A stretch of 64,000 nt of DNA, from positions 682,001-746,000 of the forward strand of contig JAOTON010002229.1 of the NCBI GenBank assembly GCA_034440635.1, read 5' to 3'. Every line of letters begins with the position of its first letter. Position 1 is the stretch's first letter. The position numbers were made by a program, and so were the translations under genes. The notes under the pieces are model-generated. The model searched no databases. It saw only the letters and a program-made list of their open reading frames with translations, and was not told where the DNA came from. This DNA comes from Lepas anatifera (lineage: Eukaryota > Arthropoda > Thecostraca > Lepadidae). Of the stretch, positions 15,774 through 64,000 are shown piece by piece.

Positions 15774-15975
15774 TCAGCTGCGCGTGCTGCGAGCCAGGCT
15801 GGCGTGGGTAAGCTGCGTGGCGGCGGCCACCTCCTCCAGGAAGGAGGCCGTGTTGTGCACGCTGGTTCCGCCCAGAAGCACCCGCACGCCCGGCGTGCTG
15901 CTGTTGATGTGGTGGACCGCCTGAGACTCCTCGTAGGTGACGCCTCCCACTATGAAGACTAGCACCTCGGTGGGT
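15774..15975 (-). CDS. VPS45: VPS45 exon 11 (terminal) with stop codon
   Basis: 202 nt including TGA. It completes the split Arg codon, then encodes [36 protein letters not shown] and [11 protein letters not shown], ending LARSTRS. Acceptor ACTGCCCGCAG. The C-terminus is a few residues shorter than in human VPS45 but equally basic and serine-rich. Confidence 0.95.
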
Positions 15976-18900
15976 CTGCGGGCAGTGAACGGCTGTGTCA
16001 GCCCAGTGCCCGCCAGCGGCGGCACACGCGCGCGGTAGACACTGAGGACTGTGTGTAGAGACAGAGGACTGTGGGCTGGACTATGTACAGAGACAGATAA
16101 CTGTGGACTGGACTGTGTCCGGCACACACGAACGGTAGAGACAGGGGCGTGTGGACTGGACTATGTGCAGAGACACAGACTGGACTATGCGCAGAGGCAC
16201 AGACTGGACTATGTGCAGAGACATAGACTGAACTATGTGCAGAGACAGAGGACTGTGGACTGGATTGTGTGCGGCACACACGCACGGTAGAGGCAGGGGC
16301 CTGTGGGCTGGACTATGTGCAGAGACATAGACTGGACTATGTGCAGAGACACAGACTGAACTATGTGCAGAGACAGAGGACTGTGTGCAGATACAGAGGC
16401 CTGTGAACTGGACTCTGACAGTGCAGAGACAGAGGACTATGGAATGGACTGAGTGCGCGCCCACGTGCGGTAGAGAACTCTGCAGCAGCGACTGGTCCAG
16501 GGCCTGGCGCCGGTGCCGGGAGCACAGACGGATCGTCAGCGGACAACGCTCGGGCTTCGGCACCATATCTATGTAGCCCCACCTAGGCGAAATGCAAACA
16601 AGAGCCGCGTTGTCACGAGCGGAAATATTGCCCAGCCCGGGACTGGTCAATACGCGCGGTGTCAAGGTTCAATTTTCCGGGGGTAATCTGGAAGATAAGG
16701 CTACAGCACGAATAGCCTTCGTCTTCTTTCCGACTCATTTTTCTTTTCCAACTCCGATTGGTTTGTCTGCCAAGCGCACCAAGCAACAAGACCAGTGGAG
16801 TGGGAGTTAAGCACAACACTGGATTTGATCTTCTAAATAGATGGAAGTTGAATCCAAAAGAAAACAACAGCTATTCGTGGTGTACAGTGTTGTATACAGC
16901 TTGCCCCGGCAAAGTCAGTCCTGGCAACGTGCCCGTTGGCCAACTTCGTCTAACCGTGGGAATGGCTGTCAATGCCACTGCGTGAAAACGGGACTAAGAT
17001 CGTGTAAAATTACTATATTTGTTCATAACAACCCATACTTTGGTCCCTCGCTTAAAAGACATGTTGATCAGGAAAATAAAATATAATGTAGCACTTCGCA
17101 TAACATGCTTCTACCAGCATTTTTCACATCCCCGCTCCTCTAATGGCCCTTACAACTTCTCTATGACAGCCTAGACAGACGCTGCGCTCGGTCTGCCCTC
17201 TTCACTTTTGACCTCTGACCCTAGCCTGACGGGTTGGCTGTATACACCTTTGCTGAAGTAGGAATGGGTGGTCTGCTGTGGTAGGAGTGGTTGGTCTGCT
17301 GTGGTAGGAGTGGGTGGTCTGCTGTGGTAGGAGTGGGTGATCTGCTGTTGTAGGAGTGGGTGGTCTGCTGTGGTAGGAGTGGGTGGTCTGCTGTAGTAGG
17401 AGTGGGTGGTCTGCTGTGGTAGGAGTGGGTGGTCTGCTGTGGTAGGAGTGGGTGATCTGCTGTTGTAGGAGTGGGTGGTCTGCTGTGGTAGGAGTGGGTG
17501 GTCTGCTGTAGTAGGAGTGGGTGGTCTGCTGTGGTAGGAGTGGGTGGTCTGCTGTGGTAGGAGTGGGTGGTCTGCTGTGGTATGAGTGGGTGGTCTGCTG
17601 TGGTAGGAGTGGGTGGTCTGCTGTGGTAGGAGTGGGTGGTCTGCTGTGGTAGGAGTGGGTGATCTGCTGTTGTAGGAGTGGGTGATCTGCTGTTGTAGGA
17701 GTGGGTGGTCTGCTGTTGTAGGAGTGGGTGGTCTGCTGTGGTAGGAGTGGGTGGTCTGCTGTAGTAGGAGTGGGTGGTCTGCTGTGGTAGGAGTGGGTGG
17801 TCTGCTGTGGTAGGAGTGGGTGGTCTGCTGTGGTAGGAGTGGGTGGTCTGCTGTGGTAGGAGTGGGTGGTCTGCTGTGGTAGGAGTGGGTGGTCTGCTGT
17901 GGTATGAGTGGGTGGTCTGCTGTGGTAGGAGTGGGTGGTCTGCTGTGGTGGGGGTGAGTGGTCTGCTGTGGTAGGAGTGGGTGGTCTGCTGTGGTAGGAG
18001 TGGGTGGTCTGCTGTGGTAGGAGTGGGTGATCTGCTGTTGTAGGAGTGGGTGATCTGCTGTTGTAGGAGTGAGTGGTCTGCTGTGGTAGGAGTGGGTGGT
18101 CTGCTGTGGTAGGAGTGGGTGGTCTGCTGTGGTAGGAGTGGGTGGTCTGCTATGGTAGGAGTGGGTGGTCTGCTGTGGTAGGAGTGGGTGGTCTGCTGTG
18201 GTAGGAGTGGGTGGTCTGCTATGGTAGGAGTGGGTGGTCTGCTGTGGTAGGAGTGGGTGGTCTGCTGTGGTAGGAGTGGGTGGTCTGCTGTGGTAGGAGT
18301 GGGTGGTCTGCTGTGGTATGAGTGGGTGGTCTGCTGTGGTGGGGGTGGGTGGTCTGCTGTGGTAGGAGTGAGTGGTCTGCTGTGGTAGGAGTGGGTGGTC
18401 TGCTGTGGTAGGAGTGGGTGGTCTGCTGTGGTAGGGAAGGTTGCTCTGTTGTGGTAGAGGAGGCGGTCTACCATGATAGAGTTCGGTGGTGCCGGAGCTC
18501 ACCTGAACGGTTGGCTGTATCCTCCACTGCTGTGGTAGGAGTGAGTGGTCTGCTGTGGTAGGAGTGGGTGGTCTGCTGTGGTGGGGGTGGGTGGTCTGCT
18601 GTGGTAGGATTGGGTGGTCTGCTGTGGTAAGAGTGGGTGGTCTGCTGTTGTAGGAGTGGGTGGTCTGCTGTGGTAGGAGTGGGTGGTCTGCTGTGGTAGG
18701 AGTGGGTGGTCTGCTGTGGTAGGGAAGGTTGCTCTGTTGTGGTAGAGGAGGCGGTCTACCATGATAGAGTTCGGTGGTGCCGGAGCTCACCTGAACGGTT
18801 GGCTGTATCCTCCACTGCTGTGGTAGGGGTAGGTGGTCTCCCGCAGTCGACCTTTCAGTAAATCATCCAGCACCCGCGCCAATAGCGGCTTATGCTGGGT

Positions 18901-21900
18901 GTAGATGTTGTCGACGCCTTTCACCCCCTGAAATCGTCCAGGAGGCGTTCCAGCCACACAGTGCTACCAATGTGGGCCCGTTGGCCGCCGGTGAGGTAGC
19001 CCGCTGTGGCGTCCCGCTGCTGCACCCGCCCCGCTACTGCTACTTCAGCCCCGCTACTGCTACTCTCAGCCCCATTACTGCTACCGCGTACAGTGTCGAA
19101 CCGAAATCCACAGAGGAACGTCAGCGGTCGACTTTACAATGTTTGACTCGATTGGCTTCTCAACAGTGACTTTAAAATGTTTCCTCTGCTGAGTTTAAAA
19201 GGCTCGCTTAAAAACATTTCCCCTCAACGGCTTTAAAGTGCTTCACTCCTAGAAGGTTACTACATATTGTTTCCCAATCCAAACAGTAACTGTTGCATAC
19301 ATATTCCAGATATCTTCAATTCGTACCAAGTGATCTAGGAGAATGAATACGATTTCATATTCAAATTCAAAACAGCATACCTCGCGCCTGCATTTGAAGG
19401 GCGTGACTCCTGCAATAACGCGAGGCCTGGGTGCCAAGCCCCGGCTGACATTTCAGGTCGCACGATTGCGCCGCTCGGCGCGGAAGGAGCTGCTTATGCA
19501 AGCTGGCTCCATTAAGTCAGGACGACGGAGACGGATTTAAAGTCATCCGAAGTGAAAACAGTTGCAGATGATTCGCGCAAGCAGTCCGGACACTTAGCTA
19601 CTTAGCGAAGACAGATAAGGTGTCGTTTAAAGGTCAAACTATTAATTGTCTAATTGAATTGCCATCGCTGTTCAACTCCCTGTCTAAGCCAGTAAAACCA
19701 GCTGAATAATTGGCTTCGCCAGATTGCCATTTGCGACTTATTCGAGCCATCAGGGGCTGCATTTACAGTTTGCATTGCTAAGTTATATAAACCGCACTCC
19801 ACCGGCATCGGGAGGCAACTTTAGTTTCACATGGTACAGACACACATGATGAACATTGATTTCACTGGTACCGGATCAAAAGTTCGGCCACCTAGTATGA
19901 CACTGGGACCGCGGCGTGACCTCCATGCCACCAAATAATTTATTTTTCACTAGGGCAGCACATAAATATCCAAAGCGCGTTAAGAGCGGCATCGGGTTGA
20001 GTAATCGTTGTCAAATATTGAGGCTTGGACCCGGTCAGTCTGGTACGCCGCCTTTTCCGGGCGCGATGGGGTTCTATGCCTCCGTGTCTGGGTCTGCTCC
20101 CACACCACATCACCGGGCGGGTGCTTACCTTGAAGAAGCGTTTGGTGACGGCCACGGGGTCAGATTCTCCGAAGAGATCACTGCCACGGGAGCGCGCGCC
20201 GCCGTAGTCCAGCATCGGGTACACCAGCTGAAACCACACCACAGCTCGTGTGGCAGCCGTACAACGCTGTCGCCCACTGGAACACTGGTTGACAGCCTCA
20301 ACTCCGACACCGCACACTCTTCAGCTGCAGCCTCAACTCAGACACCGCACACTCTCTGGCTACGACCCCAGCTCAGACGCCACACACTCTCGGCCGGAGG
20401 CCCCAGCTCAGACGCCACACACTCTCGGTCACAAGCCCAAGCTCAGACCCCTTACACTCGCGGTCGGAGGTCCCATCTCAGACACCACACACTCTCTGGC
20501 TACGACCCCAGTTCAGACGCTACACGCTCTCGGCCAGAGGCCCCAGCTCAGACGCTACACACTCTCGGTCACAAGCCCCAGCTCAGACGCCACACACTCT
20601 CGGTCACAAGCCCCAGCTCAGACGCCACACACTCTCGGTCAGAGGCCCCAGCTCAGACGCCACACACTCTCGGTCACAAGCCCCAGCTCAGACGCCACAC
20701 ACTCTCGGTCACAAGCCCCAGCTCAGACGCCACACACTCTCGGTCACAAGCCCCAGCTCCGACGCCACACACTCTCGGTCACAAGCCCCAGCTCAGACGC
20801 CACACACTCTCAGCCAGAGGCCCCAGCTCAGACGCCACACTCTCGGTCAGAGGCCCCTGGTCAGACGCCACACACTGTCGGTCAGAGGCCCCAGCTCAGA
20901 CGCCACACACTCTCGGTCACAAGCCCCAGCTCAGACGCCACACACTCTCGGTCACAAGCCCCAGCTCAGACGCCACACACTCTCGGTCAGAGGCCCCAGC
21001 TCAGACACCACACACTCTCCGGCAGAGGCCCCAGTTCAGACGCCACACACTCTCGGTCACAGGCCCCAGCTCAGACGCCACACACTCTCCGTCACAAGCC
21101 CCAGCTCAGACGCCACACACTCTCCAGAACAGGCCCCAGCTCAGACGCCACACACTCTCGGTCACAAGCCCCAGCTCAGACGCCACACACTCTCGATCAG
21201 AGTTCCCAGCTCAGACGCCACACACTCTCCAAAACAGGCCCCAGCTCAGACGCCACACACTCTCGGCCAGAGGTCTCAGCTCAGAAATCGCGCACTTTCC
21301 GACAGCGGTCTCAGCTCAGAAATCGCGCACATTCCGACAGCGGTCTCAGCTCGGAAATCGCGCTCTCCGACAGCGGTCTCATCTCAGAAATCGCATACTC
21401 TGACAGCGGTCTCAGCTCAGAAATCGCACACTCTCCGACAGCGGTCTCAGCTCAGAAATCGCACACTCTCTGACAGCGGTCTCAGCTCAGAAATCGCACA
21501 CTCTCCGACAGCGGTCTCAGCTCAGAAATCGCACACTCTCCGACAGCGGTCTCAGCTCAGAAATCGCACACTCTCCGACAGCGGTCTCAGCTCAGAAATC
21601 GCGCTCTCCGACAGCGGTCTCAGCTCAGAAATCGCACACTTCCCGACTACTGACAGGCTCGACAATAGCAGTGCGGCAATCAATGATATAGGGCTGTGCA
21701 AACAGCAACCGACACGTACATACATGCCGGACAAGGATACGACGGTCACGCCCAGCCGAGAGCTCTCATGAATAATTGAGACGTGTCTGGATGCGACTAT
21801 TTCAGCTGCCGGGTCCAGGGCACACGCGCGCCCGTCCAGCGCCGGACCGGCACTCGGAGGTCGTTGAGGCTGATGTCAACAATGGAGCCGGTGTGAGACA

Positions 21901-27900: not shown

Positions 27901-27918
27901 CCTCTCTCCCTGTCTCTG

Positions 27919-28011
<93 letters not shown>

Positions 28012-31000: not shown

Positions 31001-34000
31001 AAACAGCATTTGGACAATAACCTTTGATCTAATTAAGCTAGAGCGCTGAATCAAACGCCATCTTGTATGTCTCATCATTGGCTTTCGTTTGATATAAGGC
31101 AAGGTCACTTTCTGACCTTTCGTGACCTCAGGTCATATTAGGTCACGAGGTGACCTCTGAAGGTCAAACCACTGGCAGGAGGTCATTACGTTCCACAAAG
31201 TGGAAAAAGGTCAGGCATTTTCCTATCAAATGTACTTTACCAGATCTCAACAGCAGCTCTAATGGCATAAGAGTTATGCCCAGTTTGCTTAAGCATTGCA
31301 TATTTGAGTGAAAATGGCCTACCGTGACCTAAATTGACCTCTGGAGGTGAAACCATTGGCCTGAGCGCTTAAACATGCCAAGTAATTTCTTACTGAATTC
31401 ACGCGAACTTTCTAATGCACTTTGCATATTTTTGCTAAGCCCCATATTTTCGGAGTTAGAGGGGGCCATCGATGGCTCCCGGTGGGGCGAAGGCGGCACC
31501 AGATCCCCGGTGGGGCGCGGGTTAAGGGAGAGGGTAAGGGAACACAGTACCGCAGGAAGGACCACGTTAGGCCCGCCACAGAGCCACGGTGGACGCATGC
31601 TGATGGCAGCCACTTTCGTTCGCCGTTCGCTTCGCTTACTTCTGACACTCGCCCGTGTCATAAAAACAACAACGGGGTCCAAACCTACGGGTTAACTGTG
31701 CGGCTCAGCCCCACGGCACGGCTGAGGACCTCCGGAAAATACAATGCTGGACATTGTTTTTTAAGCTGGCTTGCAAATTTGTAGTTACAAAACACTAAGA
31801 AGCCTATGAACCTCCCTTTGCAGGCTCCGTTGGCGATATTTTGTCACAAGCTGTCATAAAAAGCTCCGTAATATATAGAACAAATCACTTTCATGCCTAT
31901 TTGGGCCGGTGACCTTTTCACGGTCATCTTTGATCAGTCACTTTACTTCCACCTGATGTATACTTGAAAGGCATTTTCACGCTGAACTGGACATCATTCA
32001 TCATTTGAAGGCCCATTGGAGATAAATGATTACAAACATACACAATAAATTCGGAAATATGCTGGTATGATAACTAACGACATCACATTGCCCAAAATAT
32101 ACAGCATTTTCTTGGAAAGACAAGACAACTGCCAACCCAGCAACGTAACAGCGCATACCGCAATTCTATTGTGATCAGTATGGAATCATGAGAAGACACA
32201 GTGCTCAAATAATGCACATTTGCACGCACTGAGTCATTTTACGACCAGGAATATTAACCAAACCCAGACACTACATTTTTGGCTGTTCCGGCTAAAACAA
32301 GCACGTTGGCTTACACTGCGCCATTCTATCACACTCTTCTCCAAAGTCAGGACTGGCGCCACTTAGCTCGCTATGTGCAGGAGGATGCAAACATGGCTCC
32401 GGATAGCGATAGGTCAAACGGCAAATGGTGGTGACCCGGCCCGCGCAGCCACTCGGGCGCGACCACGGGCCAGTGGTCTGCCCACCTATCGCTACCCATC
32501 CGCAGCCATAGGAATGTAGCGCCCGTAAGGACAGTAAACACAACGACGCACTGCCGGTACAAGCGGCGTCAAACAGCCCGCGTGGACTTATCAGCAACGG
32601 CGCTCCCGTCCCAGCTGGTTGAAAACAAGTTCACCTTCTCTATTTATTTGGATAACGCCGACCTTATCCCGGGCCCGGCGGAGGCGGAGACCAGAATTTA
32701 CTTTGGCGAGGATAAGGATGCCCAAGGCCACGCTGAGCCTATTATTGCAAGCTTCAAAGACAATGGAATACGAGCCAGTCGAGATCAAACGTGCATGTTT
32801 CTTTGATTCTGGTCTTCTTTCTTTGCGATCGCAAGCAATATTACAGAACGAGCCCAAAATGAAGAGTTCACAAACTGATACCGCGGTCCCATAGCGCTCC
32901 ATCAGTACCTTGGTACGAAAAAAACATATCATTTCCAGTTTTAAGCAGTGGAGAGGGGATCGAGCACTTAACACAGCACAAATGCTAGAATAAACACCTG
33001 ACACGCACTCCATGCCTCGACAGAGGCCTGGTACAGTGAGTCTGACAACAGCAAAAATAAACACGTCTCGGAACCGCCAACCCAATCGCCCAAGCAGGTA
33101 TCTACAATTGTATGCACTAATCAGCAGTTCAGCCTGCCCCACCGGCTCGCACGGGCCCGACCACCTGCGTGTACCTGCTAGCCCAGGGTATTCCACCTGC
33201 ATGTACTAGTGCCACCTGCAAGCACTAGTCTGACCACCTGCAAGACTAGTCTGACCACCTGCATGTACTAGTCTGACCACCTGCAAGCACTAGTCTGACC
33301 ACCTGCATGTACAAGTCTGACCACCTGCAAGCACTAGTCTGACCACCTGAATGTAGCAGTCTGTCCACCTGTAAGTGATTGTCGGACTGCGTGTCACACC
33401 TGTCAGTACTAGTCAGTCCAACGTGTCTCACCAATATGTACTCGTGAATCCAGTGAGCCATCACCTGTGCATATTTGTGAGTCCGGCGTGTGCCACGTGT
33501 ATGTACTTCAACCCAGCATAAGCCACCTGCAAGTATTTGTCGGCACCGCGTGCCCCACCTGTCAGTACCAGTCAACCCAACGTATCTTGCCTATATGTAC
33601 TTGTCCGTCCCGCGTATCCCACGTGCAGGTACTAGTCAGCCCCGCGTGTCCCACCTGTATGTATTTGTTAGTCCCGCGTGCCTCACCTGTATATACTTGT
33701 CGTCGACCCCGCGCCGCTTCAGCGTGTCCACCAGCCGGTTGATGTCGTTGTTGGCGTGCGTCTCGTACCGCAGGGCGTACAGCAGCACCAGCCGCACGGC
33801 GTCCAGCTGCTGCGTCTTCTCCGAGCTCAGCAGCCGGTAGATCCGCTGAGGGAGGCCCAGGGCGTTAGCACCCAGCACACGTCGGCCGGTCACGTCCGTC
33901 CCCAGTGCAGAGCCGGCCACACCGCCGCGCTTCACTTGTACTGCAGCTGTGTAAAGTGGGGCTCAGCGGTCACCTGAGCCGTCCGTGTGCTGTGTGATAG

Positions 34001-34852: not shown

Positions 34853-37800
34853 TTCTTTAATAAGTTGGCATCTTTATGGACCTGTAAGTTCTACAAACCC
34901 TCGTCAACTCTCTAACAGAGCAGCAGCTTCTACCACCACTATGCCCTTGACGCAACTATTTCAAACATGTGCGTTGCAGGTGATTCAGCTGCAAATTAAT
35001 CGTGCAACACCACAACTCAGCACACACGATCGGATGCCCAGTTAGTGCTAAGCGTTTTTAGTTGGGGGTGGCTATTAGCGTTTCCTATTTATCTTGAGAC
35101 AAGTATCGGCGTCTTGGAAAACACCAAGGTAGAGAGCGTAGGAGTGAGGTCAGAACAAGTGGGAACACTTCGACGTCGGTACCGCCTCATGATTACGACG
35201 CCTCGTGTGCTTTATTTTGGCCCCTGGTGGCACATTCCTGGAACTAACGACACCCAAGATGATGGTATAACGATTCGCGCGTAAATTTGGTGCACCCCGG
35301 CACTTCCGCACGGACGAACAACCAAACGTTTTCGTGCTGCTGCGAGGGTGTAGTGGCAACTGGCTTCAGGGCGACCAACTTCTTTTATTCCAAATTCAAA
35401 AGATTAAGCTACGAATGCAGACGATATGGAACGCTACGCGGACTATAAAGCGACACCAAGAAACCCAAATTTGCGAGGAAATCGTTGACGACCAGCCGTG
35501 AAGTGGCAATGGTGCGTAGCCAGATAATCAAAATTCCCCATCACAGCAGTACACAAAGGAAGCAATCGCAAGCGCAAGGTCTGCACTTTCTACTAAGGCT
35601 AATAAAACTGCTTAAAAAACAACAGTTCTATTTGAAATCGTCAGAGATTAGGCACCTTTACTTTCCGTTCAGACTTGAGAAAGAAAGCGACCAGGTCATG
35701 ACGAGAAGATACAAGAGATGTCGTCCTTCCGTTTTCGTGTTACAAACAAGTATTAGCATGATACACGAACTCACACGTTTCCAAATGTGTTGCTGGGGTC
35801 TCATCACGGTGACATTTTGAATGCGGAGCCAGCTCTATTCGTTTGATGAAACCAATCCGAAAACGAGACCAATGGAGACCTTGTTGTGAATGGGTCAATG
35901 GCTCAGCTCAGGTGGCTTCTCCAACAAAGAGGGTTATGCAAGAGGTGGGGGGGGGGTACAGAGTCCGCGTCCTCCGTAACGATTGGAGGAGATAGCTGTT
36001 TGTAGCACCGAAACAGTGCTGCAAAATGTGTCGGCCTCTGTTGGGGAAGAAAAAATATCCCACGGCCTAAAGTGAACCAATTGGTCATACGACTTCCACA
36101 CATTGTAGCCTAAGCGGGTCGTCCATACGCTACATAACGCAAATTTTCCATTTCTGAAACCCCTCTCCCCATGTAGCGTTTCTTACGTCCATGTGTAACG
36201 CTTGATAACGCTATGGCTAACTCCCCCACTCTCTTAGTGTTACGTACATTATGGACGGCCCCAAAGAGCTTAGACAAACCATAGAAACCCAAAACATACT
36301 TTCATCGTGGACAATGTTCTTCGGATTTAGCAAATGAAAGTCGCACCCCACAATTAAGCTTTCACTTAACACTGCCGAAATCCTAAACCAAAAACGGCTC
36401 TGGATTTGGGGGAGGCTGAGTGAGCTTGGAGGAGTTCGGAGACGCTACGGGAGCGCACCCAGCCCTTCGCGAGTTTCTTTTTACATTTCCAAAGCCACAT
36501 CAGAGGCCTGAAGAGAGTATACAGCGAGAAAGTAGATTTGTCCATAAGCGTCCGGGCCGGAGCTGTCTATTTTTACCGCACGTCTACTCAGCTCTGCTTT
36601 ATCGGCCGCGGTAACGCCTCGGAGCTGTCTTCACTAACACTTCTCGTAGATACTCTACTCTCGATTCCCCATAAATCGCAGCGCCCACCAGCACGCCCGG
36701 CCGCGGCAGAAGCCAATACAGCCGGGCCCCAGACCAGCGCACGAGTGAACCTCGCACCAGCAGCTGACACGAGCACGCACCACTAAAGCTACTGAATATT
36801 CGATGTCGCAAGTGCCCGGCGCGGCAGTTTCATGACACGTGGCAATGGTACCCACTGCTCATACATGATATTCGAGTGCTGCTTCGGCTTAAGTACTTAG
36901 GGCGGATTCGGCAAATTGGGTTCCGGCTGGGGGCAGGCAGGAAAATGATGCTTCTGTCACGCAGATTTAGCTCGTACAAAGAACCATGACCCATTACTCG
37001 CCTCAGAGTACAAGGTGTGAAACATTTTAATATCACAGCTTCAGAAACATGCAAAGACCTTTAAACCAAATTTGAATAGTTAGCTGACTGAACAATCCCC
37101 TTTATCAAATGTAAACCAGCTCCCGAAAATAATGAAACTTTTCCGTAACATATGCTGCGTATTTTTCAAGCCACCTCCAGTCGTATCTCCCTCCACCCTG
37201 GAGCTGAGAACGCGTTCATAATTGGGTGATTTTGCTTCCTGGAACTGACAAAAACGCAGACAGACATACCATCCGAATGTTGAAAAAAACATAGAGTCGA
37301 AAGCGAACATCTGTGATTGCAGAAAGTACCCACCAGTTCACCTGGTGGCGTCACTGGACCAGGGCACACTTAACCCGGCCAGTCACTGCACCGGAGTACT
37401 CTTACCTGGCCTAGTAAGTGGACCACGGCACACTTCCAGGAATAGTGACTGCACCAGAACACACTTGCCTGGGCAAGCCACTTCCCAGCGACACGCCCAC
37501 CTGGGCAGCTCCCTGTCCCGCGATACACCCACCTGGGCAGTTCCCTGCCCCTGCCCGGCGCACACTCACCTGGGCGGTTCCCTGCCCCGCGATACACCCA
37601 CCTGGGCAGTTCCCTGCCCCTGTCCCGCGATACACCCACCTGGGCCGTTCCCTGCCCCTGCCCGGCGACACACTCACCTGGGCAGTTCCCTGCCCGGTGG
37701 AACACCCACCTGGGCAGTTCCCTGCCCGGCGGCACACCCACCTGGACAGTTCCCTGCCCGGCGGCACACCCACCTGGGCTGTTCCCTGCTCGGCGACACA

Positions 37801-40800: not shown

Positions 40801-41526
40801 CAGACATCTGCCGCCCGCCAGCCCCAGCACCGACCGCCACACATACAGACATCTGCCGCCCGGCCCACCCTGCGACAGCCCCAGCACCAACCATCACACA
40901 ACAGACATCTGCCGCCCGCCCCCCCTTGACAGCCCCAGCACCGACCGTCACACAACAGACATCTGCCGCCCGCACCGTCCTCCGACAGTCCCAGCACCAA
41001 CCGTACACAACAGACATCTGCCGCCCGCCCCGCCCTGCGACAGACATCTGCCGCCCGCCCCGCCATCTGACAGCCCCAGCACCAACCGTCACACAACAGA
41101 CATCTACCGCCTGCCCCGCCCTGCGACAGACACCTGCCGCCCGCCCCACCCTGCGACAGACATCTGCCGCCCGCCCCGCCCTGTGACAGACATCTGCCGC
41201 CCGCCCCGCCATCTGACAGCCCCAGCACCAACCGTCACAAAACAGACATCTGCCGCCTGCCCCGCCCTGCGACAGACACCGGCCGCCCGCCCCGCCCTGT
41301 GACAGACATCTGCCGCGCACCCACGTCACACAGCAGGCATCTGCCGCGCGCTCAAACCTGCGACGGCCCCAGTACCGGCTGTCACACACAGACATCTTAC
41401 GCCCGCTCCAATGCTCTCTCGCCCTCTGTTGCATCGCCAGTTTATTCTAGCATTCAGTTCCTTAAAAACATGATTCCTTCAGCAGTAGGGCAACGATTAG
41501 TTGAGACAGAATGTGTGTGTGTATGA

Positions 41527-46587: not shown

Positions 46588-46675
<88 letters not shown>

Positions 46676-61600: not shown

Positions 61601-64000
61601 CTTGGACAGCAATCGGAGATGATCACACCAAAATACCTACCCTGACTACTAGTGGGTAAGCCAAGATGCAAGGTACCCACCCTGGCAGCAAGTGGGTAAG
61701 CCAAGGTGGAAGATGCTCACCCTGGCTGCAGCTGGGCATGCCCAGGTGGAAGAGGTGCGGCCCGGCGGCCAGGTAGTCGGCGTACAGCTCCTGCATGTCC
61801 CGCACCAACTCGTGCTCGTCCGCCTCCGCCAGCTGCTTCACGTCAGACTTGGCCAGCACGTTACTGAAGTCTGCCGCAACACAGCGTCAGACATTACTGA
61901 AGTCAGCCGTAACACAGCGTCAGACGTTACTGAAGCCAGCCGTAACACAGCGTCAGACGTTACTAAAGTCTGCCGTAACACAGCGTCAGACGTTTCTGTT
62001 GTCTCCGTAACACAGCGTCAGACGTTACTGAAGTCTGCCGTAACACAGCGTCAGACATTACTGAAGTCTGCCGTAACACAGCGTCAGACATTACTGACGT
62101 TTCCGTTACAAGGCGTCAGAAATTACTGACGTCTGCCGTAACACAGCGTCAGACATTACTGACGTTTCCGTTACAAGGCGTCAGACATTACTGAAGTCTG
62201 CCGCAACACAGCGAAAGCGTCAGACATTAGCTGTAAACAGACAAGTTAGCTGTAACACAGGACAAACGTGTCAGAAACTGCTCTAGTTAGCCGTAACACA
62301 GGACACACGCGGCAGACATCTCTCAAGTCAGTCGTGACACAGGACACTCGCGTCAGACGTCTCTCAAGTTAGCCGTAACACAAGGCACTCGTGTCAGATA
62401 TAATTGAAGCTAGCCGTAACACAGAGTACACGTAATTAGCCAAATTGTATTAAGGCGTTACCTGCGCGTTTTATAACACGCCTCAATTTCCTAATTCCTC
62501 ATAAATCTTAACCTTTACACGTAACAAGGGTAAACCTCACCATTGGTTCCCAAATTTGATTTCAATTTTTTTCTCAGAACCACAGGATAGCGCCCATTTA
62601 AAAAAATCTAACAATATTTTCACTAGAATATGTGATGTCACGACTTCACGGCACAACACATCAGGACTAAGCTTTCTTCTACTACTTTCTCTGATTCTCT
62701 TCTCAGCTGAATAAAAAACTAGTAGTGAATCGTGGAGAACACACCTTGCAAACGATTTGTCAGAAAGGTGTGAAATAGGGGACCTGTGGGCCTGAGCGCG
62801 TAAAATAAGCACACTGCTATCTAAGGGGAAAGCGGAAAAGGAAACCACACCTAATGGCAGCCCAGGTCCCGAATTTATTTCAAAAAGACTACTCAGCAAC
62901 ATTAAAAATGGAATATCTAGTGAGCAAAAAAAAAACTGGATGAGACGCAACGCTGCTATATCACTGTCTTTCCTCCTCCTTGTGCCGGGTTTTCCTACTC
63001 TAAATGCAGCTCAACGTTATCGGTACGCAGGCCCGAGTTGGGTTTCACTACCCAAACAGAACAGAAGCAGGGTAAAGCTAGCAGTCCTCACAGATGTAGT
63101 AGTAGCCGTAGCGGGGCCGGCGGAGCTCGCGCGCCAGCCTGGCCACGTTGTGTTTGGTGGGCCGGACGAACACGATGGCCTTGAGGTGGCGCTGCACGTC
63201 CGGGGGCATGTCGCCGTCCAGCCGCTCGAACAGGTACACCTCGTGCTGCAGCATCTCCGACTGGGCGAACACCACGCTCACGATGCCGATCTGCGGAGAA
63301 CTGGCAGTCAGGGCGGCAGCAATAATGCGTTAGGACGAGGTTTCTGGGGATCACACACGGCAGCCATTAAGCAAACAAAACATGTTATATCAGGCTTGGA
63401 CAAGATTATTTTTAACAGCGTTAGTTTCATTATGTTAGTGGGCCACACCACTCCGCGCTATTGTTTATTTGCTTCCTGTCTAAACCTCAATTTAGTAATT
63501 TGTCTCGTCGTAGCCCCATCAAAGGTGTAGGAGAATTAGTATATTGCAACATTAAAATACGGACCCGATCAATAGCTCAGCCTAATGGGTGGACAAATGG
63601 CCGCAGAGCGATTCGGTGCGCTGGAGGTGCATGTTTTGCCACACATGGACGACAACAATTTCAAACTGGGTATAACGTTGGTATCGGTATCACCGCAGCC
63701 ACAGTAAGCATATGGCGTGGCTGTAAAACATAATACATCTTTCACATGCCTCAGCTCCGGCTTCTGCGCTGGGTCGTACTGAGACAAGGCCCAAGAAAGC
63801 CCCAAGCACAAGTTGACAGTCACTTGAGCACTTGCAAGTTTAAGCCTCACAAAAAAGCCAGAAGTTTTTCCACTAATGGACTTTTGTTGCGGTTTTATCC
63901 CAATAAGGATGGCACAGGAAATAGGACTTACCGTTTCCTTATCTACCATGAGAACTTTCATGCCAGGTCCACTGTCTTCAATCATCTTCAATATATACTT
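15774..64000 (-). CDS. VPS45: VPS45 gene, SM-family vesicle-trafficking protein (11 coding exons seen, 5' end cut by window)
   Basis: Conceptual splicing of 63932-64000, 63092-63290, 61721-61870, 39860-39996, 39464-39574, 38852-38986, 37867-38145, 33687-33845, 20129-20227, 18791-18927 and 15774-15975 (minus strand) gives 1677 nt: 558 codons and a TGA. Every intron is GT-AG and every phase agrees. The product aligns end to end with animal VPS45 (human 570 aa). Diagnostic stretches include [73 protein letters not shown] and [19 protein letters not shown]45 is a cytosolic SM protein that binds syntaxin-16/Tlg2-type SNAREs and supports endosome/TGN fusion (family knowledge). The residues equivalent to human T224 and E238, both mutated in congenital neutropenia, are unchanged here. 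No frameshift or stop is seen, so the gene looks functional. About 8 N-terminal residues lie beyond the right edge. Promoter and polyadenylation site were not identified. Confidence 0.96.
16030..16445 (+). repeat. Minisatellite, about 24-bp core unit, in VPS45 intron 10
   Basis: Variable copies of ACTGGACTATGTGCAGAGAC plus interspersed longer units with GTGTGCGGCACACACG. It starts about 55 bp upstream of the exon 11 acceptor but does not copy it. Confidence 0.85.
16446..17228. other. VPS45 intron 10 sequence, no recognised feature
   Basis: No exon-like alignment or repeat family was identified. Confidence 0.4.
17229..18833 (-). repeat. 23-bp minisatellite derived from the VPS45 exon 10 end
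   Basis: About 55-60 copies of TGCTGTGGTAGGAGTGGGTG plus GTC (plus strand). The coding sequence at the end of exon 10 (18824-18846) differs from this unit at only 2 of 23 positions. A block of about 120 bp holding the exon end and its GTGAGC donor is present at 18709-18833 (the real junction) and again 288 bp away at 18421-18545. A degenerate exon-end copy bounds the far side at 17229-17268. Because 23 is not a multiple of 3 and the unit lacks stops, a 539-codon minus-strand frame runs through the array; it is not continuous with the VPS45 frame. Confidence 0.92.
18791..18927 (-). CDS. VPS45: VPS45 exon 10
   Basis: 137 nt (phase 0 in, phase 2 out). It encodes [40 protein letters not shown] and YSQPF plus two bases of an Arg codon. 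Acceptor CGATTTCAG, donor TTCAG|GTGAGC. The last quarter (ETTYPYHS) is nearly identical at DNA level to the unit of the 23-bp array that fills the following intron. The family alignment is weaker after YPY, where other VPS45 proteins have a different short linker. Confidence 0.93.
18928..20128. other. VPS45 intron 9, no recognised feature
   Basis: Apart from a short CCGCTACTGCTACT repeat near 19030-19085, nothing was recognised. Confidence 0.4.
20129..20227 (-). CDS. VPS45: VPS45 exon 9
   Basis: 99 nt in phase 0, encoding [20 protein letters not shown] and [13 protein letters not shown]. Acceptor TGGTTTCAG, donor AAG|GTAAGC. The preceding intron (20228-33686, 13.5 kb) is the second largest. 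A 35-bp array begins about 60 bp upstream of the acceptor. Confidence 0.95.
20290..21650 (+). repeat. 35-bp minisatellite with two subfamilies, in VPS45 intron 8
   Basis: From about 20340 to 21275 the unit is CCCCAGCTCAGACGCCACAC plus ACTCTCGGTCACAAG. From about 21275 to 21645 it is CTCAGCTCAGAAATCGCACA plus CTCTCCGACAGCGGT. Both are 35 bp and share the CAGCTCAGA core, so one array split into two homogenised blocks. The whole starts about 60 bp upstream of the exon 9 acceptor. The unit contains GTGTGGCGTCTGAGCTGG on the minus strand, loosely like the acceptor GTGTGGTTTCAGCTGG. Long plus-strand open frames here are repeat artefacts. Confidence 0.9.
21651..22518. other. VPS45 intron 8, no recognised feature
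   Basis: No supported gene or repeat. Confidence 0.4.
22519..23722 (-). mobile_element. TTAA element, family I, copy 2 (inverted)
   Basis: Body 22523-23718 (1196 bp) between TTAA at 22519-22522 and 23719-23722. It is the reverse complement of 8120-9314 at roughly 95% identity by eye, with the same terminal repeats, hairpin (GGGGGTCT arms, 22541-22560) and AGGTCA half-sites. Non-coding. Confidence 0.92.
23723..24340. other. No recognised feature
   Basis: Intronic sequence without a supported element. Confidence 0.4.
24341..24700 (+). mobile_element. tRNA-headed SINE, family S1, full-length copy
   Basis: The head GGTAGCTCAGTTGCTAGAGC is tRNA-like (A box) and GGGATCGGTTCCCCT resembles a B box region. 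A long unrelated body follows, ending CAAAATCAATAAAAAG. The sequence matches 56981-57335 along its whole length, and partial copies lie at 50349-50470 and 59166-59386. Confidence 0.88.
24701..27109. other. VPS45 intron 8, no gene; minor repeats
   Basis: About 3.5 copies of a 19-bp GGCCAAAATCCCCAAATAA unit lie at 25281-25350. A stray pair of units related to the 27.1-kb array lies at about 25195-25255 (CTGTCCGTGTAATAGACCGG). Open frames at 25823-26065 and 26682-26978 have no recognisable domain. Confidence 0.45.
27110..27670 (+). repeat. 34-bp minisatellite in VPS45 intron 8
   Basis: About 16 copies of GACCGACCGATCTGTCCGTG plus TAATGGACTGGAGG. The left end copies are more diverged (GGAATTCCAGTCTGTCCGTG). 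Two minus-strand frames remain open through it, but only because the unit lacks stops. Confidence 0.9.
27921..28009 (+). repeat. (CT)n microsatellite
   Basis: About 45 CT units with a single interrupting G near 27955. Confidence 0.97.
28010..29673. other. VPS45 intron 8, no recognised feature
   Basis: Open frames here (for example 28500-28928) do not resemble known proteins. Confidence 0.4.
29674..30508 (+). mobile_element. TTAA element, family III
   Basis: Body 29678-30504 (827 bp) between TTAA at 29674-29677 and 30505-30508. Terminal repeats TTAACACGCGCATTGACTGG and TTAACACGCGCATTAACGGG match at 18 of 20. Subterminal palindromes: GGGGGCGGGTACACGCCCC on the left and GGGGCGGGTACCCGCCCC on the right. 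The internal motif GAAAAACCTGAGGGG lies next to the right hairpin. Non-coding, with AGGTCA half-sites. It shares its right TTAA with the next element. Confidence 0.85.
30505..31525 (+). mobile_element. TTAA element, family II, copy 2
   Basis: Body 30509-31521 (1013 bp) between TTAA at 30505-30508 and 31522-31525. The ends read TTAACCCTCGCCCCACCGGG and TTAACCCGCGCCCCACCGGG (19 of 20). GGGGCCATCGATGGC palindromes sit just inside each end. It is rich in AGGTCA/TGACCT and aligns along its length with 42480-43505. Confidence 0.9.
31526..33164. other. VPS45 intron 8, no recognised feature
   Basis: No exon-like or repeat alignment supported. Confidence 0.4.
33165..33700 (-). repeat. Minisatellite copying the exon 8 donor junction
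   Basis: Next to exon 8 the unit is about 32 bp. On the minus strand the real junction reads GACAAGTATATACAG|GTGAG and the next copy reads AACAAATACATACAG|GTGGG, each followed by CACGCGGG. Copies decay with distance. From about 33190 to 33360 they become a 22-bp unit CTGACCACCTGCAAGCACTA plus GT. Confidence 0.88.
33687..33845 (-). CDS. VPS45: VPS45 exon 8
   Basis: 159 nt in phase 0, encoding [29 protein letters not shown] and ending GVDDKYIQ. Acceptor GCCTCCCTCAG, donor ACAG|GTGAGG. Tandem copies of the exon end plus donor follow in the intron. Confidence 0.95.
33846..34777. other. VPS45 intron 7, no recognised feature
   Basis: No supported gene or element. Confidence 0.4.
34778..34851 (+). 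repeat. (TA)n microsatellite
   Basis: Uninterrupted TA dinucleotides, about 37 units. Confidence 0.97.
34852..36115. other. VPS45 intron 7, no recognised feature
   Basis: No supported gene or element. Confidence 0.4.
36116..36262. mobile_element. Short MITE with GGGTCGTCCATA-type inverted ends
   Basis: The left end GGGTCGTCCATACGCTACAT and the reverse complement of the right end, GGGGCCGTCCATAATGTACG, are clearly related, spanning 147 bp. The GGGNCCGTCCATAA...TACGTAAC end type recurs in animal DNA transposon MITEs; I do not assign a superfamily. No clear target duplication. Confidence 0.65.
36263..37489. other. VPS45 intron 7, no recognised feature
   Basis: From about 37371 the sequence begins to resemble decayed copies of the adjacent 32-bp array; otherwise nothing was recognised. 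Confidence 0.4.
37490..37870 (-). repeat. 32-bp minisatellite copying the exon 7 donor junction
   Basis: On the minus strand the unit is CCAGGTGGGTGTGTCGCCGG plus GCAGGGAACTGC. The first CCAG|GTGGGT is the real exon 7 donor (37861-37870), and about eleven more copies of the same donor-like string follow. Some units carry a CGCGGGACAGG-type insert. Confidence 0.92.
37867..38145 (-). CDS. VPS45: VPS45 exon 7
   Basis: 279 nt in phase 0, the longest exon. It encodes [20 protein letters not shown], the [19 protein letters not shown] motif, [12 protein letters not shown] and ends DEHQQSLQ. Acceptor CCTCGCCAG, donor CCAG|GTGGGT. The donor is reiterated about a dozen times downstream as a 32-bp tandem repeat. 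Confidence 0.96.
38146..38620. other. VPS45 intron 6, no recognised feature
   Basis: Nothing supported before the tRNA-like segment. Confidence 0.4.
38625..38720 (-). mobile_element. Possible tRNA-like SINE head
   Basis: On the minus strand GGATGGCGCAGTTGGCTAGC resembles a pol III A box, and GGGTCAATCC about 45 bp later resembles a B box. No tail or duplication was identified. Confidence 0.45.
38852..38986 (-). CDS. VPS45: VPS45 exon 6
   Basis: 135 nt in phase 0, starting [18 protein letters not shown] and ending EHDDFYAE. Acceptor TTTCCTGCAG, donor GAG|GTACGC. It continues SM domain 2 directly from exon 5. Confidence 0.95.
38987..39463. other. VPS45 intron 5, no recognised feature
   Basis: A/T-rich intronic sequence. 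Confidence 0.4.
39464..39574 (-). CDS. VPS45: VPS45 exon 5
   Basis: 111 nt in phase 0, encoding [14 protein letters not shown]...[14 protein letters not shown] and SITPLLNQ, a hallmark stretch of SM proteins. Acceptor ACGTTTCAG, donor CAG|GTGCGA, which is weaker than the other donors. Confidence 0.95.
39585..39712 (-). repeat. Three diverged tandem copies upstream of exon 5
   Basis: CATGACCGTTCTGTGCACGG followed by a TGAC(A/G)TG box occurs three times at roughly 45-bp spacing. It ends about 10 bp from the exon 5 acceptor and does not include it. Confidence 0.65.
39860..39996 (-). CDS. VPS45: VPS45 exon 4
   Basis: 137 nt (phase 1 in, phase 0 out) encoding [20 protein letters not shown] through [10 protein letters not shown]. 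The acceptor CTGTCGCAG|G is the first copy of a long intronic tandem array. The donor is CGG|GTGAGT. The upstream intron, 21.7 kb, is the largest of the gene. Confidence 0.95.
39991..41420 (-). repeat. Compound minisatellite copying the exon 4 acceptor
   Basis: On the minus strand the intron end GGTGCCGGGGCTGTCGCAG|G is reiterated as GGTGCTGGGGCTGTCGCAGG in most long units (about 56 bp, roughly 17-18 copies). These alternate with a 30-bp unit, GCAGATGTCTGTCGCAGGGT plus GGGGCGGGCG, which also ends in CTGTCGCAGG. The array thus holds dozens of acceptor-like sites. Long open frames on both strands are artefacts of the repeat. Confidence 0.92.
41528..41582 (+). repeat. (TA)n microsatellite beside a Penelope-like element
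   Basis: Perfect TA run directly next to the 3' end of the left Penelope arm. Confidence 0.96.
41600..44237 (-). mobile_element. Penelope-like element, left arm of an inverted pair
   Basis: Read on the minus strand this arm has the tail of a reverse transcriptase ([20 protein letters not shown], then YVDD at 43855-43866) followed by a GIY-YIG endonuclease ([20 protein letters not shown], about 42245-41990). That order is diagnostic of endonuclease-bearing Penelope-like retroelements. The endonuclease frame is intact through the conserved HLPNWD stretch but hits TGA where the right arm has TGG. The RT N-terminal part is missing. A TTAA element is inserted at 42476-43509. Confidence 0.9.
42476..43509 (+). 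mobile_element. TTAA element, family II, copy 3, inserted in the Penelope arm
   Basis: Body 42480-43505 (1026 bp) between TTAA at 42476-42479 and 43506-43509. Ends are TTAACCCTCGCCCCACCGGG and TTAACCCGCGCCCCACCGGG. Subterminal palindrome GGGGGCCATCGATGGCCCCC. The other Penelope arm retains the uninterrupted target (CATATTAATCAGAAATCC, reverse complement of about 44864-44881), which has a single TTAA. This shows precise TTAA insertion with target duplication. Confidence 0.96.
44200..44275. repeat. Centre of the Penelope palindrome (hairpin)
   Basis: TCATCAGTATTCTGTAGG on the left pairs with CCTACAGAATACTGATGA on the right. Next comes a bulged A (44230), then TGCGTC pairing with GACGCA around the three-base loop AGC (44237-44239). 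It is the symmetry axis of the two arms. Confidence 0.92.
44239..45722 (+). mobile_element. Penelope-like element, right arm of an inverted pair
   Basis: Reverse-complement copy of the left arm, 5' end to 5' end. It carries an RT fragment with YVDD at 44573-44584 and a GIY-YIG endonuclease ([20 protein letters not shown], 45107-45165 region). The endonuclease has lost one base near 45233 within the conserved HLPNWD codons, shifting the frame; after it the frame continues to a stop at 45385-45387. The [16 protein letters not shown] stretch is also damaged. The 3' terminal 400 bp is nearly identical to the left arm. Confidence 0.9.
45659..45684 (+). ncRNA. Hammerhead-ribozyme-like core at the Penelope 3' end
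   Basis: CTGAAGA, then a short hairpin GACAA/TTGTC, then GAAAC fits the catalytic core pattern CUGANGA - stem II - GAAA. The left arm has TTGAAGA at the equivalent place. Penelope-like elements are known to carry hammerhead motifs. Stem III (GCG...CGC) is weak, so activity is doubtful. Confidence 0.4.
45723..46591. other. VPS45 intron 3, no recognised feature
   Basis: No supported element. Confidence 0.4.
46592..46674 (+). repeat. (TA)n microsatellite
   Basis: Perfect TA run of about 41 units. Confidence 0.97.
46675..47584. other. VPS45 intron 3, no recognised feature
   Basis: No supported element. Confidence 0.4.
47585..47974 (+). mobile_element. TTAA element, CCCATTAACGCCC family, copy 1
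   Basis: Starts TTAACCCATTAACGCCCAGC at 47585 and runs into GGGTCATTTTTGTCC. The inverted end GGACAAAAATGACCCGCTGG plus GCGTT lies at 47951-47975, but its terminal TTAA has decayed. About 390 bp, non-coding. Confidence 0.75.
47975..49704. other. VPS45 intron 3, no gene; two short repeats inside
   Basis: 48401-48569 is bounded by CAGTGGCGGA and its rough inverse TCCACCACTG, suggesting a hAT-like MITE without a clear target duplication. 48745-48843 is listed separately. Nothing else was recognised. Confidence 0.45.
48745..48843 (-). repeat. Short interspersed repeat, copy 3 of 3
   Basis: The reverse complement reads CACTGGCAATGCAATCCAAG, GGGAGACCAAAAATCCAGG and a C-rich end, matching 1303-1397 and 2195-2293. 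Confidence 0.72.
49705..49870 (+). mobile_element. TTAA element, CCCATTAACGCCC family, short copy 2
   Basis: Left part AACGCCCAGCGGGTCATTTT matches copy 1; the right end, read inward, is TTAACCCATTAACGCCCGCA with TTAA at 49867-49870. The left TTAA is missing. It could instead be the right end of one 2.3-kb element beginning at 47585. Confidence 0.65.
49871..50348. other. VPS45 intron 3, no recognised feature
   Basis: A small inverted repeat, TTTACCTTTATTTTC with GAAAATAAAGGTAAA, lies at 49999-50036. Otherwise nothing was recognised. Confidence 0.45.
50349..50470 (+). mobile_element. SINE family S1, diverged head fragment
   Basis: TTGTTCAATTGATAAAGCGG, GGCCCACTGCTCAG and GATTCCCCTGGGAAGCTCTG align with the first 120 bp of the SINE at 24341. 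Confidence 0.7.
50514..50585 (+). repeat. GGCGCC-repeat fragment
   Basis: Three spaced GGGGCGCC units, including GGGGCGCCTTTGCTATCC, the signature of the large array at 57.6-59.1 kb. It abuts a reverse transcriptase relic. Confidence 0.8.
50586..51335 (+). pseudogene. Jockey-like reverse transcriptase relic (RT core)
   Basis: Translation gives [40 protein letters not shown] and then, after a frame change, [27 protein letters not shown] and [15 protein letters not shown]. These are the order and spacing of a jockey-type RT palm-thumb region. Stops and frameshifts throughout show it is dead. The C-terminal and RNase H remnants continue at 52670 and 53560. Confidence 0.82.
51336..52448. other. 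Sequence interrupting the jockey-like relic
   Basis: About 1.3 kb (with the SINE-like piece below) separates the RT core from its C-terminal part. No coding signal; no terminal repeats identified. Confidence 0.45.
52449..52560 (+). mobile_element. tRNA-like SINE head
   Basis: GGCGCAGTGGACTAGTGGTT (A-box region) and GGGTCGAATCC (B box) about 42 bp later have tRNA-like spacing. The 3' end is undefined. Confidence 0.65.
52670..52825 (+). pseudogene. Jockey-like relic, post-RT C-terminal piece
   Basis: Encodes [20 protein letters not shown], then [20 protein letters not shown], the conserved region between RT and RNase H in jockey-type elements (ALRI.TGAF..SP...L..E....PL..R). Same strand as 50586-51335. 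Confidence 0.75.
52826..53559. other. No recognised feature
   Basis: Unassigned sequence between relic fragments. Confidence 0.4.
53560..53871 (+). pseudogene. Jockey-like relic, RNase H domain
   Basis: Across frame changes it reads [29 protein letters not shown] and [16 protein letters not shown]. These are the catalytic-region motifs of a retrotransposon RNase H (D..., E in SELYSI, D in FTDSLS). It continues the relic at 52670. Confidence 0.8.
53872..55285 (-). pseudogene. Second non-LTR retrotransposon relic, RT to RNase H, opposite strand
   Basis: On the minus strand: [39 protein letters not shown] (near 54920), [33 protein letters not shown] and then an RNase H piece GVFIESPD...[13 protein letters not shown]. 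Several frameshifts and stops. GC-rich codon use differs from the A/T-richer plus-strand relic, so this is a different family. It meets the plus-strand relic end to end at about 53.87 kb. Confidence 0.85.
55286..56394. other. VPS45 intron 3, no recognised feature
   Basis: No supported element. Confidence 0.4.
56395..56590 (+). repeat. GGCGCC-repeat, opposite-phase fragment
   Basis: Units of CGGCGCCCCCTGAAA and GTGGCGCCCCCTGCTCC recur. Related in composition to the main field at 57.6 kb. Confidence 0.7.
56591..56980. other. No recognised feature
   Basis: Unassigned sequence before a SINE. Confidence 0.4.
56981..57335 (+). mobile_element. tRNA-headed SINE, family S1, full-length copy
   Basis: Matches 24341-24700 almost throughout: TTGCTCGGTTGGTAGAGCG (A box), GAGATCGGTTCCCCTGAGAC and the TTCGGGTGGTGGGGTCGGGG body. 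The 3' end is GAACTTGGACGAAATTTATA. It sits within the GGCGCC-rich region. Confidence 0.9.
57505..58440 (+). repeat. GGCGCC-repeat field, block 1
   Basis: About 35-40 diverged units of roughly 22-24 bp, consensus GGGGCGCCTTTGCTATCCAG. Individual units vary (TGTGCTAACC, TATGATATC, TCTGCTGTCC), and their order recurs later in the block and again at 58660-58925, so this is a higher-order repeat. Confidence 0.85.
58660..59065 (+). repeat. GGCGCC-repeat field, block 2
   Basis: The unit order of block 1 repeats (TTTGCTGTC, GTGCTAACC, GTGATATC, TCTTCGGAGG, CAGCTGTCC, TATGCTATCC, ATTACTCAAGG, TTTGCTTTCC). The ends of both blocks are followed by a CTTCAG, TGACCGGCCGGG and GGCGCCGGC region, marking duplication of a longer segment. 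Confidence 0.82.
59166..59386 (+). mobile_element. SINE family S1, 5'-truncated copy
   Basis: Begins within the body of the SINE (GTGTCTGATGGTAAC) and runs through TTCGGATGGCTGGCTCGGGG to ACTTGGACAAAATGTATAAA, aligning with the 3' half of 56981-57335. Confidence 0.75.
59551..60801 (+). mobile_element. TTAA element, family IV
   Basis: Body 59555-60797 (1243 bp) between TTAA at 59551-59554 and 60798-60801. Ends TTAACCCTATTTCCGTCAGG and TTAACCCTATTTCCGGCAGG (19 of 20); the terminal motif occurs twice at the left end. Hairpins GGGGGGCAATATCGGCCCCC and GGGGGGCAATATTAGCCCCC follow. GAAAAACCTGAAGGGG lies beside the right one. A smaller inverted-ended segment, 60021-60460 (TCAGGGGCGG ends), is nested inside. 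Confidence 0.88.
60802..61629. other. VPS45 intron 3, no recognised feature
   Basis: A short inverted pair GCATGCTCTATCACATG and GATAGAGCATG occurs near 61469-61510. Nothing else is supported. Confidence 0.4.
61635..61754 (-). repeat. 40-bp tandem triplication of the exon 3 donor junction
   Basis: Three copies in exact 40-bp register. The first is the real end of exon 3 (CAGCTGCAGCCAGG|GTGAGC). The next two lie in the intron (CTTGCTGCCAGG|GTGGGT and CTAGTAGTCAGG|GTAGGT), so GT starts fall at 61720, 61680 and 61640. Each intronic copy also retains exon-like sequence (CTTGGCTTACCCA for CTGGGCATGCCCA). Confidence 0.9.
61721..61870 (-). CDS. VPS45: VPS45 exon 3
   Basis: 150 nt, phase 1 to phase 1, encoding [19 protein letters not shown] through [15 protein letters not shown]. 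The acceptor is GCGGCAG|ACTTCAG and the donor CAGG|GTGAGC. Both junctions are embedded in tandem repeats that copy them (33 bp upstream, 40 bp downstream; see the repeat entries). Confidence 0.95.
61853..62440 (-). repeat. 33-bp minisatellite copying the exon 3 acceptor
   Basis: On the minus strand the unit is CTGTGTTACGGCAGACTTCA plus GTAACGTCTGACG. The real acceptor and first exon bases read GGCAG|ACTTCAGTAACGT, so each of about 11 units reproduces acceptor and about 13 exon bases. Beyond 62225 the units become longer and degenerate (CCGTAACACAGGACAC...). Confidence 0.92.
62441..63091. other. VPS45 intron 2, no recognised feature
   Basis: No supported element between the array and exon 2. 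Confidence 0.4.
63092..63290 (-). CDS. VPS45: VPS45 exon 2
   Basis: The acceptor TTCTCCGCAG is followed by [14 protein letters not shown] and the exon ends ...[10 protein letters not shown] plus one base at donor GTGAGG. Length is 199 nt (phase 0 in, phase 1 out). It covers the start of SM domain 1, including the conserved YLFER and [10 protein letters not shown] stretches. No tandem repeat touches either junction. Confidence 0.95.
63291..63931. other. VPS45 intron 1, no recognised feature
   Basis: 641 bp, no repeats recognised. Confidence 0.5.
63932..64000 (-). CDS. VPS45: VPS45 exon 1 (partial, 5' end outside window)
   Basis: This exon encodes [20 protein letters not shown] plus KET, matching the N-terminus of VPS45 from about residue 9. 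It ends in phase 0 at a strong donor (ACG|GTAAGT). The initiator codon should lie about 24 nt past the window edge, unless a further exon precedes. Confidence 0.93.

Follow-up and report, generated by a model that had tools for sequence, protein, structure and literature searches.

Minisatellites at exon-intron boundaries of VPS45 and of other genes in the barnacle Lepas anatifera

Minisatellites that extend over exon-intron boundaries have been described in amphioxus under the name of mirages. They were reported for Adh3 (Canestro et al. 2002, as cited in PMC3087553), for the globin genes BflGb6 and BflGb9 (PMC3087553), and for PGBD5 and troponin C (PMC3902484). According to the passages of PMC3087553 and PMC3902484 that deal with them, their units measure about 10-160 bp, 5' as well as 3' boundaries are affected, and splice signals occur in many copies. 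The same passages report that the repeat number differs between haplotypes, that Adh3 shows somatic instability and that regular splicing is undisturbed, and they call the mechanism unclear. A cephalochordate host is the setting of the cases published there and not a part of the definition, and these passages hold no placement test. Two further systems are related. In segmentally duplicated human genes, minisatellite-sized repeats with a mean unit of 30 bp and a variable number are located at exon-intron boundaries; in the sections of PMC2812944 that describe them, they are exonic or associated with new introns and are backed by transcripts. The Rogers model, as cited in PMC3087553, derives intron gain from the duplication of proto-splice sites, i.e., from a tandem duplication that copies splice signals.

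Among the open-access papers listed for barnacles and crustaceans and for the phenomenon in general, no arthropod case was recognised by title or abstract start. The terms "tandem repeat", "intron" and "minisatellite" are absent from the main text of the barnacle genome paper PMC11331182, and the main text of a second one, PMC8917513, has no word starting with "tandem" or "satellite"; the annotated repeats are described there as nearly all simple or low-complexity.

Here, we describe arrays of this kind from a barnacle, that is, from an arthropod and not a cephalochordate. They correspond to mirages in that they span boundaries (5 of 20 junctions in VPS45 and 11 of 156 in three further gene families), carry splice signals in their copies and affect both donors and acceptors. 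Somatic instability and normal splicing are amphioxus reports; on the side of the barnacle, the sequence of VPS45 shows an intact frame and a conserved length of the protein. In contrast to the human repeats, they are intronic and leave the coding frame of the exon unchanged, and unlike the outcome of the Rogers model they show no new intron. A further difference from the amphioxus work is that array positions were tested against placement at random and with matched GC, the genes having been selected blind to repeats. This is a known kind of feature, found here in a new and distant host and with evidence that exon edges are favoured.

The window, by which we mean the whole stretch of 64,000 bases that was analysed, is part of an assembly of 1.04 Gb (1,044 Mb). 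VPS45 was located by tblastn with a human VPS45 sequence as the query, and its exons were assembled by the GT-AG rule and the reading frame. On the minus strand, 11 exons fall into the window, which gives 10 introns and 20 junctions (Table 1). All 10 introns are GT-AG, and the open frame comprises 558 amino acids with the stop at 15774. The product aligns with one gap to residues 9-565 of two barnacle proteins. Among the best 120 matches of the protein search, these proteins of Amphibalanus amphitrite (85%) and Pollicipes pollicipes (84%) are the nearest relatives, and the remaining 118 reach at most 65% identity, one Branchiostoma protein 61%. Aligned directly, the identities to the two barnacle proteins are 85.5% and 83.5%, and those two share 86.4% with each other. 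An amphioxus source, which the published mirages had suggested, was rejected on the result of the protein search. A Sec1 family profile search of the assembly gave matches on six contigs, which suggests that this family is present as one haplotype.

Table 1. VPS45 exons and neighbouring tandem arrays (positions within the window)
Feature	Position	Strand	Remarks
Exon 1 (truncated at window edge)	63932..64000	-	donor without array
Exon 2	63092..63290	-	both junctions without array
Exon 3	61721..61870	-	array at acceptor and at donor
Exon 4	39860..39996	-	GT-AG and frame
Exon 5	39464..39574	-	both junctions without array
Exon 6	38852..38986	-	both junctions without array
Exon 7	37867..38145	-	GT-AG and frame
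Exon 8	33687..33845	-	GT-AG and frame
Exon 9	20129..20227	-	GT-AG and frame
Exon 10	18791..18927	-	bases 26-49 upstream of donor resemble 23-bp array unit
Exon 11, including stop codon	15774..15975	-	GT-AG and frame
Array spanning exon 3 acceptor	61861..62424	-	33-bp units, about 41-bp distally; 10 exon bases
Array spanning exon 3 donor	61633..61753	-	40-bp units, 3 copies; 33 exon bases
Higher-order array ending at exon 4 acceptor	39996..41397	-	mixed 30/56/86/146-bp periods; 1 exon base
Array from exon 7 donor	37484..37870	-	32-bp units; 4 exon bases
Array from exon 8 donor	33193..33701	-	about 32-bp, then 22-bp units; 15 exon bases
Array near exon 9 acceptor	20330..21647	-	35-bp units; 65-102 bp away (by strand of TRF run); exon copy not above control
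Array after exon 10	17251..18745	-	23-bp units; begins 45 bp inside intron; one second-order copy, copy donor at 18503
Array near exon 11 acceptor	16035..16414	-	59 bp away; exon copy not above control

Tandem arrays were called with TRF at a period of at least 10. The initial annotation had claimed arrays at six of the twenty VPS45 junctions, with a unit that includes the splice site, usually together with exon bases, and with the real junction as the outermost copy. Five of these six hold as described: TRF arrays span the acceptor and the donor of exon 3, the acceptor of exon 4 and the donors of exons 7 and 8. Exon bases are included as claimed, with a slight share at exons 4 and 7. At the exon 7 donor, for example, the junction reads CTCCAG/GTGGGTGTG and the array units carry CCAG/GTGGGTGT. 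The position of the real junction at the outermost copy agrees with the reading frame and with the alignment of all 558 residues to the two barnacle proteins, and the unit sizes found by TRF are close to those first given. The sixth junction, the exon 10 donor, differs, and its unit lacks the donor. With this one exception the earlier observation is right, and it is more general than was claimed.

As a check independent of TRF, 24-base probes over each of the 20 junctions were compared with the adjacent intron. Copies with at least 18 of 24 bases were found at five junctions (acceptors of exons 3 and 4, donors of exons 7, 8 and 10), the best score at the exon 3 donor was 17, and the remaining 14 junctions scored 11-15. 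Random placement of the VPS45 arrays with at most 20 exon bases of overlap gave 0.20 spanned junctions on average and never more than 3 in any of 5000 trials; with 35-50 exon bases allowed, 0.43-0.58 junctions were spanned. Nine VPS45 arrays measure at least 150 bp. Four of them span a junction, and the number of those that span or lie nearby is still four within 20 bp, five within 45 bp and seven within 65 bp.

The repeated unit at exon 10 excludes the splice site, because it matches exon bases further upstream, with 2 mismatches over 24 aligned bases, and the donor is copied just once. This single recurrence lies 288 bp deeper in the intron, within an exact copy of 168 bp that comprises 37 exon and 131 intron bases. 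It is the best example for a conveyor model, in which the exon edge is copied repeatedly and the youngest unit lies beside the exon. As a general model the conveyor was rejected, since similarity to the real junction unit shows no consistent gradient with distance: of 13 ranked arrays, 9 have a negative rho, and p < 0.05 is reached in one. The lack of a similarity gradient may fit a single seed with subsequent internal turnover and is no proof of it; with nine of 13 values negative, repeated copying of the exon edge may also play a part.

For a wider sample, exons of the Sec1, CCT chaperonin and kinesin families were taken from Pfam matches in the assembly, blind to repeats; the adaptin and myosin families lie outside this junction sample. 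DNA was fetched for a part of these exons, mostly with short introns. Kinesin regions were restricted to compact genes, and deep introns are therefore under-sampled. To call junctions, we used the reading frame, the continuity of the Pfam match and splice-site scores, which gave confident introns for 78 of 95 exon pairs; the other 17, without a confident junction call, were left out. Three of the 82 first-pass junctions, located near arrays, switched status at the score threshold on the second pass: CCT C112 (spanning) and the first intron of CCT C1578 (array 7 bp from the acceptor) fell below it, and the third intron of CCT C1578 (spanning) rose above it. One kinesin twin, C480, is included in the count of spanned junctions, in the coverage, in the null for 29 arrays and in the GC counts, and is excluded from the tests on arrays of at least 150 bp and from the GC-matched, decoy and exon-match tests. 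The adaptin pair C1055/C1407 was picked for its differing intron lengths and is outside all junction counts; C1407 is among the 13 ranked arrays.

In these three families, arrays span 11 of 156 junctions (5 of 82 in the first pass over 41 introns) and overlap 6-49 exon bases, about equally at donors (6) and acceptors (5). The 78 introns are touched by 29 arrays, for which random placement yields 2.0-4.2 spanned junctions (p <= 0.001); the expectation varies with how much exon overlap is permitted. The junction signal is strongest for large arrays. Among the 15 arrays of at least 150 bp (without C480), 8 span a junction; together with those up to 20 bp away the count is 11, and with those up to 45 bp away it is 13, compared to 2.4, 3.4 and 4.5 under random placement (p = 0.0005 for spanning, p = 0.00025 for 45 bp). 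For introns below 1 kb in the three families, the excess of spanning falls short of significance (5 observed, 2.65 expected; p = 0.09). The recurrence at junctions that the initial annotation had postulated is beyond chance against a shuffled null, both in VPS45 and in the 78 introns selected blind to repeats.

The junction as the peak of arrays was considered as well, and the coverage profile is against it. In Sec1, CCT and kinesin genes, arrays cover 7.4% at 0-10 intron bases from the exon, 11-12% at 40-200, 22% at 300-500, 15% at 500-1000 and 3% beyond 1 kb; the respective values for VPS45 are 25%, 32-41%, 47%, 35% and 9%. Arrays are exon-proximal, with a maximum that is not at the junction. 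Several large arrays begin 5-65 bp from it, most of them without an exon copy above the foreign-exon control described below.

The base composition changes along the same axis. Exons have a GC content of 0.61-0.62, array-free intron sequence 0.45-0.46 and intron sequence within 50 bp of junctions 0.56-0.58. Weighted by length, arrays have a GC content of 0.58-0.64 in VPS45 and of 0.62-0.64 in the three families. When the seeds of the 15 large arrays are placed with matched GC, 3.7 (spanning), 5.9 (within 20 bp) and 6.8 (within 45 bp) are expected, compared to the 8, 11 and 13 observed (p = 0.007, 0.0005 and 0.0001). For VPS45, four of nine arrays span a junction where 0.43 are expected (p = 0.0003). 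Composition accounts for a part of the junction bias and not for all of it, because the GC-matched null is higher than the random one yet below the observed values.

The origin of the copied bases was assessed by comparing the intron part of each array with its own exon end and with 154-172 foreign exon ends. In 9 of 31 arrays of at least 75 bp, the own exon end fits better than every foreign one, a count in which the margin is thin for two (kinesin C1508 and VPS45 intron 2) and in which an exon match is partly expected, as an array that spans a junction necessarily includes exon bases. The acceptor and donor of exon 3 and the donor of exon 10 represent VPS45 among the arrays above the control. 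For the other 22, including the exon 4 acceptor and the donors of exons 7 and 8, the exon copy is not above the foreign-exon control. The exon is the likely source of copied bases, because the conserved protein holds its sequence in place. An array that follows a kinesin exon reads SLAAEQSFIPYRWAHWA repeatedly in the exon frame; IPYR belongs to a conserved stretch of the kinesin motor.

Both units that were compared with the assembly are private. With very common words skipped, the exon 3 acceptor unit matched its own array only within the 1.04 Gb, and a unit shared by two kinesin copies (C1057 and C480) had matches on these two contigs only. The claim that the arrays arose independently fits these results, since units differ and the exon 3 acceptor unit is confined to its own array.

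The two kinesin copies show an identity of 97.1% across an alignment of 3910 bases. They differ at both junctions of one exon: a 30-bp unit at its acceptor is present in 15 copies in C1057 and in 21 copies in C480, and a 51-bp unit at its donor (35 exon and 16 intron bases) in 12 and 19 copies, respectively. Unmatched ends aside, the gaps of at least 10 bp comprise three within arrays (90, 88 and 357 bp, the last one being 7 x 51) and one of 12 bp elsewhere. The pair (L033, L034/L049) represents either two haplotypes or a recent gene duplicate. In the adaptin pair (L050, L051), the repeat stretches measure about 0.44 and 1.4 kb, and the acceptor array of C1407 overlaps 43 exon bases. Such near-identical pairs on separate contigs, for which the sequences suggest retained haplotypes or recent duplicates, are of use for measuring array change.

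Taken as a whole, the arrays of VPS45 and of the kinesin, CCT and Sec1 genes are probably minisatellites of the mirage type that were seeded at the exon edge and then turned over. A short tandem duplication with units of about 20-90 bp would arise over or beside the exon edge and would place a copy of the splice site, often along with a few exon bases, in the intron. Such copies would then grow or shrink by slippage or unequal exchange, in the fashion of minisatellites; with the exon fixed by its coding sequence, the true splice site would come to lie outermost and the array on the intron side. This picture would be completed by a single seeding event for each array, a modest preference of mutation for exon edges and a splicing process that ignores decoys. 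The initial proposal of recurrent duplications that start at the junction is about half right. Its recurrence is supported, by an anchoring beyond chance that survives the GC-matched control and by repeat numbers that vary between near-identical copies; the junction is not a coverage peak, and repair at transcription-linked breaks, named there as an example, would be a candidate cause at most. The best-supported contributor to the bias is the GC-rich exon edge within a GC-poor intron background. A rather unlikely reading goes further and dispenses with any junction-specific process: seeding would occur wherever sequence is GC-rich, seeds inside exons would be purged by selection, and seeds at the edge would survive as the intron side tolerates them. 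An array GC content near that of exons and far above array-free intron, the raised intron GC within 50 bp of junctions, a near-junction expectation that GC matching lifts from 4.5 to 6.8 of 15, and the coverage profile without a junction peak are all in agreement with it, but 13 of 15 large arrays and four of nine in VPS45 exceed what it predicts (p = 0.0001 and p = 0.0003). At the other extreme, exon edges might be true mutational hot spots for minisatellite birth in some lineages, separately in barnacles and cephalochordates, with most large intronic minisatellites within a few dozen bases of splice sites, driving intron growth and the supply of decoys. We put this wider claim forward tentatively, and doubt it somewhat more than we believe it.

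Explanations in which the arrays serve a purpose, record an intron gain or do not exist in the genome fare worse. It is quite improbable that the arrays are under selection, with the exon ends and splice sites that are copied into introns acting as splicing enhancers or as a source of alternative isoforms. The decoy sites with which the introns had been said to be filled are present as candidate sites, as judged by splice-site scoring, and among the 15 spanned junctions (8 donors, 7 acceptors; C480 left out) there are 12 at which one decoy or more scores at or above the real site, as a selected function might have it. The exon 4 acceptor array holds 65 decoy AGs, 7 of them at or above the real acceptor, and the exon 7 donor array 41 decoy GTs, 10 of them at or above the real donor; in the exon 8 donor array no decoy reaches the score of the real donor. 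The decoy donors of one kinesin also leave the frame open across the stretch translated. Against selection, the idea that copies offset weak splice sites was rejected, as spanned junctions are not weaker (p = 0.24 for the 8 donors and p = 0.65 for the 7 acceptors, both small samples), and in-frame selection of units was likewise rejected, as lengths are multiples of three in 5 of 15 cases, as by chance. In addition, the three units closest to VPS45 exon 3 at its acceptor read FSNV and then a stop codon in the exon frame, and near-identical gene copies differ in repeat number. Splice-site strength, unit length and frame thus give no sign of a function, as far as these can be judged from sequence. 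The authors of the amphioxus globin study proposed (in the relevant passage of PMC3087553) that an intron is created when an exon segment bearing splice-like signals is duplicated in tandem, and the copies could be the remains of such a birth; this is hardly credible here, as each VPS45 array occupies one end of an intron that is ordinary in other respects and often long (21.7 kb and 13.5 kb) and as the units at the two ends of exon 3 are unrelated to each other. Tandem arrays are also prone to mis-assembly, but units inside an array differ from one another, the same arrays occur on two separate contigs with different repeat numbers, and VPS45 reads through intact, which leaves an assembly artefact with a negligible probability.

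If it is true that exon edges seed minisatellites, splice junctions would be mutation-prone as well as selected, and introns would grow for an immediate, local reason. With a second, unrelated lineage, comparisons can address the question: several barnacle genomes have been published (Pollicipes and Capitulum are examples), and near-identical pairs of gene copies already show array change. For gene-finders, the arrays are a warning, because many decoys score equal to true sites.

Further repeats are found in the window. An array of 34-bp units in 15 copies (27135-27666) lies deep in VPS45 intron 8, more than 6 kb from both exons, and is a clear exception to the anchoring at junctions. Intron 3 contains a cluster of degenerate 19-21-bp repeats (57620-58754) with a core like CTATCCAGGGGGCGCC. 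Past the VPS45 stop, minisatellites with units of 31, 25 and 32-64 bp are located at 11965-12229, 13383-13601 and 14171-14714, at no definable junction. A second gene downstream of VPS45 that would account for the arrays at 11.9-14.7 kb was considered: 10 of the 202 open stretches of at least 80 amino acids in the window were compared with Pfam, 6 of these 10 within 1-15.7 kb, and the sole match was a reverse transcriptase, so that a gene may still be present there. This match belongs to an open frame of 692 amino acids on the plus strand (4023-6098) with an RVT_1 domain (E = 9.6e-26), i.e., to a retroelement downstream of VPS45.
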